NCBI GenBank assembly: GCA_040754375.1
Contig: JBFMCT010000007.1
Span: 1-64,000 of the forward strand
DNA length: 64,000 nt
Direction of reading: 5' to 3'
DNA from: Actinomycetota bacterium
Lineage (GTDB): Bacteria; Actinomycetota; Acidimicrobiia; Acidimicrobiales; AC-14
Shown piece after piece: positions 8,968-44,080 of this stretch (positions are counted from its first letter, which is position 1; every line of letters begins with the position of its first letter). Under the pieces are notes generated by a model that was given only the letters and a program-made list of their open reading frames with translations, made no database searches and was not told where the DNA came from. The position numbers and the translations under genes were made by a program.

Positions 8968-9741
8968 TCAGGTGGCCCGCTGGCGGTCCATCCACCCGAT
9001 CACGAAGGCCACCGCCCGGGGGTCGTGGCGCAGGCGATGGCCGGCCCCGTAGACGAGGCGCAACTCGGCGCTGGGACCGGCGGCCGTGGCCAGGGTGCGG
9101 GCGTCCTGGGATGGGACCCGGTCGTCGTCGGTGCCGTGCACGAGCAGGAGGGGCCGCGGCGGCACCTGGTCGACCACGTCGAGGGCCCGGACCTCGGCCA
9201 GTTCCCGGCCCCAGGCGTCCACGTCGGGTGGGAAGGCCCGGTTGGGGATGACCCCGATCTGGCGGGCCTGGTCCAGGAACCGGCGGGGGTGGGCGGCCCA
9301 CACGTCGAAGGTGGCGGGCGCGGCCAAGGCGGCCACCCCCCGCACCCTCTCGTCCTCGGCGGCCTGGACGATGGCCAGCGCCCCCCCGGTGCTCGATCCC
9401 GCCAGCCAGATGCCGCTGACCTCCTCTGCCTGCAGGTGGTCGATCGCCGCCGCCAGGTCGGCCAGCCAGCCCCGCAGGGAGAAGTTGCCGGCCGAGCGGC
9501 CCGCGCCTCGGAAGTTGAAGGTCAGCACCGCCCAGCCCGTCTCGGCCGACAGGTGTTCGGCGAACGACGGGTAGGTCTTGCCCGAGGTGGCCGCTCCGCC
9601 CGGCCCGCTGGGGAAGCCGTGGCATAGCACCAGCCCGGGCGGCCGCCGCCCGCCTCCGGCCGAGGGCATCACCAGGTGGCCAGCCAGGGGCAGGCCCTCG
9701 GAGTCGATCGTCACCTCAGTCAACGCCGCCCTACCCCTCAT
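8968..9741 (-). CDS. Alpha/beta hydrolase
   Basis: Predicted serine hydrolase of the dienelactone hydrolase/BAAT-like group; substrate unknown. It shows the oxyanion region VLCHGFPSGPGG, the conserved TFNFRGAGRSAGNFSLRGW, the nucleophile elbow LAGSSTGGALA (Ser in GSSTG), an acid in LLLVHGTDDDRVP, and the catalytic His in VYGAGHRLRHDP. Length is 257 aa from ATG 9741; a downstream TTG at about 9726 or GTG at about 9717 are possible, since no start has a clear ribosome-binding site. A perfect 15-bp hairpin lies 14 nt upstream of ATG 9741, at the end of a structured region on this strand, so a 5'-leader control is possible. Confidence 0.85.
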   Translation of the reverse strand: MRGRAALTEVTIDSEGLPLAGHLVMPSAGGGRRPPGLVLCHGFPSGPGGAATSGKTYPSFAEHLSAETGWAVLTFNFRGAGRSAGNFSLRGWLADLAAAIDHLQAEEVSGIWLAGSSTGGALAIVQAAEDERVRGVAALAAPATFDVWAAHPRRFLDQARQIGVIPNRAFPPDVDAWGRELAEVRALDVVDQVPPRPLLLVHGTDDDRVPSQDARTLATAAGPSAELRLVYGAGHRLRHDPRAVAFVIGWMDRQRAT

Positions 9742-9754
9742 GATCGGTGTGACG

Positions 9755-9787
9755 CGACGAAGGGGCGCGCCACGCGCCCCTTCGTCG
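9755..9787. terminator. Perfect 15-bp hairpin with a 3-nt loop
   Basis: Left arm CGACGAAGGGGCGCG (9755-9769), loop CCA, right arm CGCGCCCCTTCGTCG (9773-9787). There is no T-run on either side, which is common for actinobacterial terminators. It lies at the 3' end of the structured region on the - strand, just before the alpha/beta hydrolase start. Confidence 0.6.
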
Positions 9788-9985
9788 TCAAGAGCTGGAT
9801 AAGGAACCCAAGGGCCGAGGACTGCTCCGGGCGGGACCATCTCCCGGCTCGCTTCCCTTGGTGGTGGCTGGCGGGATTCACCAGCCCGGCCCAGCTGCCA
9901 GCTAGTGGTCAGCCACCTCCGGGGTCCCAGGACAACTATCGATCAGCTGGACCACCTCCTTTCTCCGGTACCGGATATGAAAGCA
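9755..9985 (-). ncRNA. Candidate structured RNA or leader, unnamed
   Basis: About 300 bp (9742-10042) lacks a convincing gene but is rich in complementary segments. Reading the - strand: AGAAAGGAGGTGGTCC (9964-9949) is the exact type of extended Shine-Dalgarno, so the + strand reads like a 16S rRNA 3' tail. Next come GGTGGCTG pairing with CAGCCACC, inner GGCTGG with CCAGCC, then a long nested helix CCAAGGG...CGAG...CCGGG closed by CCCGG...CTCG...CCCTTGG. The region ends in a perfect 15-bp hairpin (9755-9787). A 20-codon reading frame beginning RKEVVQLIDSCPGTPEV follows the purine-rich motif. It could be a small RNA, a leader of the alpha/beta hydrolase, or a short peptide gene. I cannot name a family. 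Confidence 0.45.
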
Positions 9986-10042: not shown

Positions 10043-10483
10043 TCAGGGCTCCGGGCCGGGGTCGGTGAGGGGGCCGACGGCGCCGATGTCGGTGAGGTAG
10101 CCCATCTGGGCCTCCAGCACGGCGTTGACCTGGGCGGCCGTGTAGCCCGTGCCCGCGTCGGCTGACCGCTTCATCACGAAGCTGGCCGACTCCGCCCCGG
10201 TCACGACCACGGGGCCGTCGAGGTGGGGCCCGCTGCCGTTGCCGGCCACGCCCTTGAGCCGGAAGTACTCCAGGTGCCAGTCGATGATCTGGCGCACGTC
10301 GTCGGGGGAGAGCACGGCCGCCACATCGTCGCTCACGTGGTCGCAGACCCAGGCCACGGCGTCATCGAAGTTGAAGGTGCGCTCTACGGGCACGGCCGCC
10401 AGCCGGCGGGCTTCGCGCCCGATGACCACGGCGGCGATGGCGAACACGGCCAGGGCGGCCACGACGACCAGCAGGATCCCCAC
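10043..10483 (-). CDS. Conserved hypothetical protein with N-terminal membrane anchor
   Basis: 146 aa, function unknown. Residues ~3-22 (GILLVVVAALAVFAIAAVVI) form one transmembrane segment, followed by a basic stretch REARRLAAVP and a soluble domain with NFDDAVAWVCDHVSDDVAAV, SPDDVRQIIDWHLEYFRLKG and a C-terminal AAQVNAVLEAQMGYLTDIGA. The soluble part looks helical and cytoplasmic, though topology is inferred. ATG 10483 is 44 nt from the divergent metallo-hydrolase start, so the two share a short promoter region. I recall similar proteins of unknown role in other actinobacteria but cannot name a domain. Confidence 0.75.
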   Translation of the reverse strand: MGILLVVVAALAVFAIAAVVIGREARRLAAVPVERTFNFDDAVAWVCDHVSDDVAAVLSPDDVRQIIDWHLEYFRLKGVAGNGSGPHLDGPVVVTGAESASFVMKRSADAGTGYTAAQVNAVLEAQMGYLTDIGAVGPLTDPGPEP

Positions 10484-42627: not shown

Positions 42628-43287
42628 GTGCTGTTCCCGGCCCGTTGCCCGGTGTGCGGTGCCCACGGCCCGGCGCCGTGCGGGGCCTGCCGGGCGGCCC
42701 TGCGCCCGGCGCCGCCCCTGCCGCCCCCGCCCGGTGTCGACTCGTGCCGATCGTTCGTCGCTTACGCGGGAGTGGGCCGCGAGCTGGTGGCCCGGTTCAA
42801 GTACCGCAACGCCCGGGCATCGATCGGGTTCCTGGCCGACGGCATGGCCGCCCTCGTCGACGCGTCGACCGTCGATGCGGTGACGTGGGTGCCGACCACG
42901 CCCGCCCGTCGCCGCCAGCGGGGGTTCGACCAGGGCCAGTTGCTGGCCCGGGCCGTCGCCCGCCGGCTGGGCCATCGCTGCCGCCGGCTGCTGGTCCGGG
43001 GCCCGGGCCCGGCCCAGACGGGCCAGGCGCAGGCCGAGCGCCACCGGGGCCCGACGATCGCAGCCGCCCGCCGGCGCCCGCCCGCCCGGGTGCTGGTCGT
43101 GGATGACGTGGTCACGACCGGGGCGTCCCTGGCGGCTGCCGCCCGCGCCCTGCGGTCCGCCGGTGTTCGGGAGGTCACGGCCGTCACCGCCGCCCGAACG
43201 TCGCTGCGGCGCCTACACTCAGGTATGGCCGAGTGCGGGTCTGTGGTTGAAAGTCGACGCCAGCCGCAGGCGAAACGACCCACGTAA
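42628..43287 (+). CDS. comF: ComF family phosphoribosyltransferase-like protein
   Basis: 219 aa, ComFC-like. An N-terminal zinc-ribbon-like pair FPARCPVCGAHGPAPCGACR, the conserved GRELVARFKYRNARASIGFL, RRRQRGFDQGQLLARAVARR, and the PRPP-binding loop VLVVDDVVTTGASLAAAARA. In competent bacteria ComFC helps in uptake of single-stranded DNA; in actinobacteria its role is not settled. GTG 42628 starts 1 nt after the DUF559 stop. The last ~25 codons overlap the promoter and probable 5' part of the raiA-motif RNA that follows. Confidence 0.88.
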   Translation: MLFPARCPVCGAHGPAPCGACRAALRPAPPLPPPPGVDSCRSFVAYAGVGRELVARFKYRNARASIGFLADGMAALVDASTVDAVTWVPTTPARRRQRGFDQGQLLARAVARRLGHRCRRLLVRGPGPAQTGQAQAERHRGPTIAAARRRPPARVLVVDDVVTTGASLAAAARALRSAGVREVTAVTAARTSLRRLHSGMAECGSVVESRRQPQAKRPT

Positions 43288-43515
43288 GGCAACCATTGGT
43301 TGCCGATCATGGTGCGGCTTAGAGGTAAGACCTGCTCGACCGGGCCCGAATGGCGGGCACCGGTGGGAGAGGGAGGGAAGCGTCACACGTACGGTTGTGA
43401 GGGGCACTCGCCGCCACGGCCGTGGGCGCGAGCTCTCCAGCAGGCGAGTGTGGGGTCAAAGACCAGGTCAGCCGCACGCGGCCTGTCCCGTCCGAGAAGA
43501 CTGCCTAGGCAGAGC
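43226..43515 (+). ncRNA. raiA RNA: Probable raiA-motif RNA between comF and hpf
   Basis: A ~240-nt space between comF and the raiA/hpf gene is full of complementary segments. GGCAACC-ATT-GGTTGCC is a perfect hairpin (43288-43304), and CACTCGCC pairs with GGCGAGTG about 35 nt later, enclosing a GC-rich stem. ACACGTACGGTTGTGAGGGG precedes it. TACACT (43214-43219) could be its -10 box. From memory, the raiA motif is a large structured RNA in Firmicutes and Actinobacteria located next to raiA and often comF. Position and size fit; I could not test the consensus. The boundaries are approximate. Confidence 0.6.
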
Positions 43516-43525
43516 GGAGGTCGGT

Positions 43526-44080
43526 ATGGAGTTCATGGTTACCGGGCGTCACATGGAGGTGCCCGAGCGGTTGAAGGCGGCTGCTGAGGAGAAGGTCATG
43601 CGGGTCGTCCGCCACTACGACGGGTGGGACGAGGCCGAGGTCCGCTTCCTGGAGGAGCGCAACCCGCGGATCACCGACAAGGAGGTCTGCGAGGTCACGC
43701 TGAGGGGCCACGGGCACATCCTGCGGGCCAAGGCGGCGGCCACCGACTCGTTCACGGCGGTCGACCGGGTGGTCGACAAGCTCTCGCACCAGGTCGAGAA
43801 GCTCAAGACCCGCCAGAGCCGCAAGGCCCCGCACAAGCGCCAGCCGGTAGACTCCAACGGCCCGGTGCTCGACGAAGAGGGCGAGGATGAGCAGGGTTTC
43901 GGCAGGATCGTCAAAGTCAAACGTTTCGACCTCAAGCCCATGACGCCTGAGGAAGCCGCGCTTCAGATGGAGATGCTGGGCCACACCTTCTTCTTCTTCA
44001 CCAACGCCGACTCGGGGTCGGCGGCGGTCGTCTACCGCCGCGACGACGGCTACGTCGGCCTCATCGACGCCAGCGCGTGA
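43526..44080 (+). CDS. hpf: Long-form ribosome hibernation-promoting factor (HPF/RaiA)
   Basis: Binds the 30S decoding channel and pairs two 70S ribosomes as inactive 100S dimers under stress. 184 aa. N-terminal S30AE domain: FMVTGRHMEVPERLKAAAEE, RFLEERNPRITDKEVCEVTL and HILRAKAAATDSFTAVDRVV. After a charged linker, the C-terminal dimerisation domain has GRIVKVKRFDLKPMTPEEAA, LGHTFFFFTNADSGSAAVVY and RRDDGYVGLID. ATG 43526 follows CGGAGG by 5 nt; unlike many genes here it has a true leader, which contains the probable raiA RNA. Confidence 0.95.
   Translation: MEFMVTGRHMEVPERLKAAAEEKVMRVVRHYDGWDEAEVRFLEERNPRITDKEVCEVTLRGHGHILRAKAAATDSFTAVDRVVDKLSHQVEKLKTRQSRKAPHKRQPVDSNGPVLDEEGEDEQGFGRIVKVKRFDLKPMTPEEAALQMEMLGHTFFFFTNADSGSAAVVYRRDDGYVGLIDASA

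Follow-up and report, generated by a model that had tools for sequence, protein, structure and literature searches.

TnaC, ErmCL and TrpL are ribosome-operated leader peptides and attenuators, and SgrS/SgrT is a dual-function sRNA. The lambda bar minigenes are very short ORFs that engage ribosomes with the help of a Shine-Dalgarno (SD) sequence, and tmRNA is a structured, stable RNA whose short ORF and stop codon are read by ribosomes. The RNA described here resembles each of these in part. As in the leader peptides, a short ORF overlaps alternative RNA helices, yet there is no conserved downstream gene, peptide or even frame. As in tmRNA, a structured RNA presents a short ORF and a stop codon to ribosomes, but ARAGORN found no tRNA-like domain or tag and the RNA has its own SD. 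Like SgrS/SgrT and RyhB/RyhP (PMC5331693) it is a small RNA with an ORF, although here the ORF itself supplies strands of the structure and conservation does not extend to the peptide. Minigenes such as lambda bar (compare PMC8708949) likewise combine a very short ORF with an SD to engage ribosomes, whereas the present RNA, spread over several phyla, has 10-15 codons, a covarying fold and another SD near its stop.

The catalogued family to which our locus is related is RF02471 (Ms_IGR-5, 'Actinobacteria sRNA'). Ribosome footprints on Ms_IGR-5 have been reported in two mycobacteria only, M. abscessus and M. smegmatis (PMC4974804). Expression of relatives has RNA-seq support in S. lividans, S. 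avermitilis and M. smegmatis (PMC8079986, PMC8780764, PMC10454040), and stand-alone transcription of relatives is described in Streptomyces (PMC8079986, PMC8780764). The family description, as returned, mentions neither a mini-ORF nor a pseudoknot nor a spread beyond Actinobacteria, and the Rfam match assigns the GGUGGU segment a pairing other than the one found here. Searches of the openly licensed literature with the motif string and with homologue locus names found no functional study. The mini-ORF, its independence of frame, the covarying helices and pseudoknot and the multi-phylum spread are new relative to the catalogue and to the literature searched.

The locus and its relation to RF02471

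The RNA lies in a gap of roughly 300 bp between a 146-aa ORF (10483-10043) and an alpha/beta hydrolase, on the minus strand of the window, by which we mean the whole 64-kb stretch of DNA analysed. By sequence inspection, every segment named in an earlier sequence-only reading was present on that strand in its assigned place, the complementary CGAG/CTCG among them. The features, from 5' to 3' of the RNA, are:

9975..9980 (-): putative -10-like element TCATAT, its position deduced from the promoter-like element that is fixed in relatives
9902..9971 (-): 5' module (SD, ORF, basal helix), common to several phyla (covariance model R1)
9801..9969 (-): RF02471-homologous region, whole model 1-184 (cmscan)
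9965..9968 (-): 5' strand CCGG of basal helix P1, strong covariation; partner 9919-9922
9949..9964 (-): SD1, extended Shine-Dalgarno AGAAAGGAGGTGGTCC, best 16S-tail complement in the genome
9902..9946 (-): mini-ORF kept across loci, CTG start at 9946, 14 codons LIDSCPGTPEVADH, TAG at 9902-9904
9923..9928 (-): pseudoknot 5' strand GGGACC, within the ORF; partner 9833-9838
9919..9922 (-): P1 3' strand CCGG, within the ORF, strong covariation
9913..9920 (-): SD2, second SD-like motif GGAGGTGG, conserved, just 5' of the stop
9910..9917 (-): P2 5' strand GGTGGCTG, within the ORF, covarying with a downstream CAGnCACC element
9863..9870 (-): P2 3' strand CAGCCACC, same covariation
9808..9861 (-): 3' hairpin CCAAGGG..CCCTTGG with inner CCGGG/CCCGG; two-sided changes in all five pairs of the inner stem
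9861-9855 with 9814-9808 (-): outer stem of the 3' hairpin, CCAAGGG with CCCTTGG, from sequence
9847-9843 with 9831-9827 (-): inner stem, CCGGG with CCCGG, from sequence
9833..9838 (-): loop segment GGTCCC of the 3' hairpin, serving as pseudoknot 3' strand; column covariation
9755..9787 (-): 15-bp hairpin, terminator-like but lacking a T run, from sequence

The sequence-only reading had called this RNA unnamed. A cmscan search against Rfam, which it had proposed, shows instead an already catalogued kind, since RF02471 matches the window copy over its full length (41.5 bits, E 2.2e-8). This score is below the gathering score of 45 bits, and the match surfaced with an E-value threshold rather than at the curated Rfam threshold, so we file the copy as a divergent homologue and not as a curated member. 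On comparative grounds the 9755-9985 locus (minus strand) is a divergent RF02471 homologue and probably a stand-alone structured RNA gene. It aligns along its whole length with bona fide members, and it has the SD-ORF-P1 module in common with mycobacterial copies such as L067, which scores 179 bits in RF02471. A relative from the same order clears the gathering threshold with 45.9 bits, as do copies from Mycobacterium, Dactylosporangium, Amycolatopsis, Zixibacteria and Acidobacteria. Model R1 gives the 5' module of the window copy 81.3 bits (E 3.8e-25), a value obtained with that copy in its training set. Other Rfam families matched the interval at chance level only. A tmRNA or tRNA identity was discarded, as ARAGORN found neither in the 64-kb window.

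Conservation in other actinobacteria, which had been suspected, was confirmed and extends to Acidobacteriota, Planctomycetota and others. The segment was found by blastn in 28 of the 41 genomes searched, its own included, and R1 matched 181 of 392 genomes of its own phylum at E <= 0.001. At the same threshold R1 matched 44/149 genomes of Acidobacteriota (32 at E <= 1e-5), 30/149 of Planctomycetota (13 at E <= 1e-5) and 6/148 of the phylum of a deltaproteobacterial copy (2 at E <= 1e-5), where phylum names are the labels of the seed genomes, the calibration of R1 is rough and weak matches include chance ones. Copies labelled Zixibacteria and Acidobacteria score 55.9 and 47.7 bits in RF02471, and because they pass its threshold the family extends beyond Actinobacteria. 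The copies labelled Nitrospirae and Sumerlaeota are single records each and may reflect bin contamination; the weak model matches L236-L238 look like chance and were rejected. Many seed loci of R1 had been gathered with a pattern that fixes GGAGGTGGTCC and GAGGTGGC (SD1 and SD2), and R1 then drove the wider searches, a bias that the blastn relatives and model matches relax but do not remove. Genomes usually carry one copy.

The transcript would start near 9969. Among relatives, TTGnnn-N16-19-[TC]AnnnT stands at a fixed upstream distance in 82 of 164 loci, compared with 5.8 in shuffles; in the window copy a scan recognised no consensus promoter. A hairpin lies 3' of the RNA, and in several copies from outside Actinobacteria a T run comes after it; a scan of the window copy found no consensus terminator.

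Shine-Dalgarno motifs and the mini-ORF

The purine motif had been taken for an extended ribosome-binding site, and this holds. SD1 differs from a perfect complement of the 16S tail by 1 mismatch, which is GU-compatible, while the next-best site in the genome has 2 and all others have 3. The tail itself, TGCGGCTGGATCACCTCCTTTC, was recovered from 8 of 11 genomes of relatives; since the organism's own assembly contains no recognisable 16S tail, the sequence was taken from these relatives. In S. aureus, weak start codons are reported to be recognised with the help of extended SDs (PMC13009471). The SD of copies L299, L286 and L287 is GGUGAUCC where GGUGGUCC is usual, and it complements the 16S tail in full; thus the usual G is not fixed. 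The GGTCC of SD1 can also pair with GGACC at 9923-9927. A further GGACC-type segment lies 3' of the stop, GCUGGGCC at 9888-9895 (minus strand), and is conserved in Acidimicrobiia in the form GCUGGACC; its complementarity to GGUCCAGC of SD1 makes it a possible clade-specific alternative for sequestering the SD.

The mini-ORF of the window copy begins with a CTG 8 nt downstream of GGAGG and reads CTG ATC GAT AGT TGT CCT GGG ACC CCG GAG GTG GCT GAC CAC TAG. To judge its retention we counted, in 82 distinct loci found with R1 and not filtered for an ORF, those in which a start is followed by a stop after 6-22 codons. A canonical start (ATG, GTG or TTG) and a stop were present in 70/82, compared with 18% of shuffles, and with near-cognate starts (CTG/ATC/ATT) included the count rose to 81/82 against 37%. 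In nearly all of these loci 10-14 nt separate GGTG from the stop. A second set, 165 distinct loci found by pattern, had an in-frame stop close by as a selection criterion; the ORF frame is open in 164 and the other two frames in 44 and 25. Their starts are ATG, GTG or TTG in 128/165, the other 37 have CTG, ATC or ACG in the equivalent position, and the stop, for which TAG, TGA and TAA are all used, lies five codons past GAG in 164/165. Across loci the ORF typically has 10-15 codons and its start falls mostly 7-13 nt past GGAGG; for this reason a start within the SD was rejected.

The frame in which the SD2 motif is read is not constant. Most copies read GAG-GTG-GC (EVA.., for example EVAGR*), L295, L296, L297, L302 and L303 read GGA-GGT (..SGGGSS*), and L243, L245, L246 and L249 read AGG-TGG (..RRWLG*). 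The stop nevertheless stays 10-14 nt past GGTG, so that each of the three possible frames across this one RNA motif carries the ORF in some copies, and the N-terminal residues vary freely. Because the reading frame differs by clade, these comparisons suggest that the act of translation, rather than the peptide sequence, is what is conserved; a conserved peptide, as expected of a small protein, was not found. The sequence-only reading had proposed a 20-codon peptide (RKEVVQLID...). It had the right frame and a short ORF, but the start is the CTG after the SD, 14 codons remain, and in view of the frame switching a peptide is an unlikely product.

SD2 would add a further contact at the other end of the ORF. 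From the end of its GGAGGUGG to the stop is about 8 nt, and with the stop codon in the A site the spacing of SD2 from the P-site codon would be that of a typical SD; its conservation also partly reflects its role in pairing. As had been suggested, the extended ribosome-binding site probably does recruit ribosomes.

Covarying helices and the pseudoknot

Folding of the window copy is moderately better than that of dinucleotide shuffles (z -2.4 and -2.8), and in its minimum-energy fold P1 and P2 give way to other local pairings. Since pairing at this level would not settle the matter, the case rests on comparison. In relatives the covariation scores exceed those of every shuffle and, together with the blastn distribution and the full-length RF02471 match, bear out the proposal of a conserved multi-helix RNA.

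P1 joins the 5' end of the RNA to a segment that leads up to GAGG and takes in its beginning; a single register is used, with many types of base pair (pair 6-69: CG31, AU25, GC7; pair 7-68: CG30, AU16, GC13). Its covariation score was reached in 0/500 shuffles and slid controls were far lower. SD1 forms a bulge between P1 on one side and a GGUCC/GGACC top on the other. The top pairing shows no covariation, as is expected if the 16S tail fixes GGUCC. P2 is a long-range helix between GGUGGCUG near the end of the ORF and the downstream CAGnCACC; its variants are CTG/CAG, CCG/CGG, CCA/TGG, CTA/TAG and TTG/CAA, the last also in L025.

The pseudoknot pairs GGAC with GUCC in 132/134 loci (columns 50-154: GC36, UA2), with compensated cases GUGAC/GUCAC, CGAC/GUCG and GGAU/AUCC. 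As SD1 is unchanged in these cases, the loop is the better-supported partner of GGACC. A crude statistic on only the 26 non-GGAC variants gave 14 compensated against 12.5 expected and is uninformative because it accepts any 4-mer anywhere; support for the pseudoknot comes from column covariation and inspection of the loop sequences. One strand each of P1, P2 and the pseudoknot lies within the ORF, and a translating ribosome must therefore open all three.

A proposed ribosome-operated switch and competing readings

The reading we prefer, and to which we give about an even chance, is a free-standing structured RNA whose fold is opened by the translating ribosome, that is, a switch run by ribosome loading and translation. 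Sequence comparison supplies the SD, the ORF, the second SD near the stop and the covarying strands within the ORF; the remaining steps are our proposal. A 30S subunit would bind SD1 and open P1, and the ribosome would translate the mini-ORF and pause at the stop while its anti-SD engages SD2, which would delay release. There it would break P2 and the pseudoknot and expose the P2 3' strand (CAGnCACC) and the GGUCC loop, which may mark the occupied as opposed to the free state. The RNA could thus exist in a closed pseudoknotted and an open ribosome-held form, set by the ease with which ribosomes load and finish, and might serve to sense initiating ribosomes or to park them. More tentatively, and at somewhat less than an even chance, we propose that it represents a multi-phylum class of free-standing RNAs not recognised before, whose moving part is the ribosome, with a near-maximal SD to load it, a throw-away ORF kept in any frame and another SD on which it stops; the fold of a pseudoknotted regulator would then be set by the supply of ribosomes or by the fidelity of initiation.

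Four other readings rank below this switch. An SD1 unmatched in the genome as a complement of the 16S tail and a second SD set just before the stop would also suit a decoy that holds or titrates 30S subunits by means of its two SDs and minimal ORF, its internal fold serving only to tune the effect; however, one copy per genome would titrate ribosomes only if the RNA were very abundant, and a decoy does not need an elaborate covarying pseudoknot and long-range helix, which makes it unlikely. We are a little more doubtful of a conventional trans-acting antisense sRNA that uses the GUCC loop and CACC as target seeds and carries its ORF incidentally. RF02471 is catalogued as an sRNA and these unpaired elements are conserved, but the retention of start, frame and stop is far beyond that of shuffles and the GUCC loop is accounted for by its pairing to the ORF. 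Improbable, too, is a small-protein mRNA or dual-function sRNA with a functional peptide of 10-15 residues: the EVA(A/V/G)(R/S) ending that recurs in Actinomycetota is dictated by covarying RNA strands, other clades use other frames and make unrelated peptides, and the N-terminal residues are free.

The least probable reading, with only a very slight chance, is a cis-acting leader or attenuator of the alpha/beta hydrolase (a Pfam match), as the sequence-only reading had suggested. The gene, which likely starts near 9741, is downstream in 35 Acidimicrobiia loci. Neighbours are kept within this class but differ in other actinobacteria, where a nitrobindin-like downstream gene is on the opposite strand in 37/37 loci, and no conserved downstream gene of the kind a leader or attenuator would have emerged from this comparison. 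In addition, the terminator-like hairpin intervenes between RNA and gene and no antiterminator strand was seen; GGACC has alternative pairings, but none was seen against the terminator stem. With synteny lost outside Acidimicrobiia and this hairpin in between, we discarded the hydrolase leader.

In the ribosome-operated switch, RF02471, listed as a non-coding actinobacterial sRNA, appears to be old, widespread and translated, with an immaterial peptide. If true, this would account for the published footprints on a supposedly non-coding RNA and would offer a direct handle on whether bacteria use RNA to sense ribosome availability or initiation fidelity, for which M. smegmatis and Streptomyces are tractable hosts.

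The surroundings of the RNA yielded some further observations. The 146-aa protein encoded at 10043-10483 (minus strand) has a hydrophobic N-terminus and no Pfam match; in 32 Acidimicrobiia loci its gene is conserved as the immediate upstream neighbour of the RNA. In Mycobacterium, Actinomadura, Nocardiopsis and Blastococcus the RNA is found, by eye, near YgfZ-like folate-binding and nitrobindin-like proteins, a gene order shared across several actinobacterial orders. At the curated threshold, Rfam recognised in the 64-kb window a raiA RNA alone (RF03072, 43230-43480, plus strand, 152 bits, above the gathering score). It is followed by an ORF within 43103-44080 whose protein, MEFMVTGRHMEVPERLKAAAEEKV.., resembles by eye the RaiA/HPF hibernation factor, and the window thus carries two conserved RNAs with a possible link to ribosomes.
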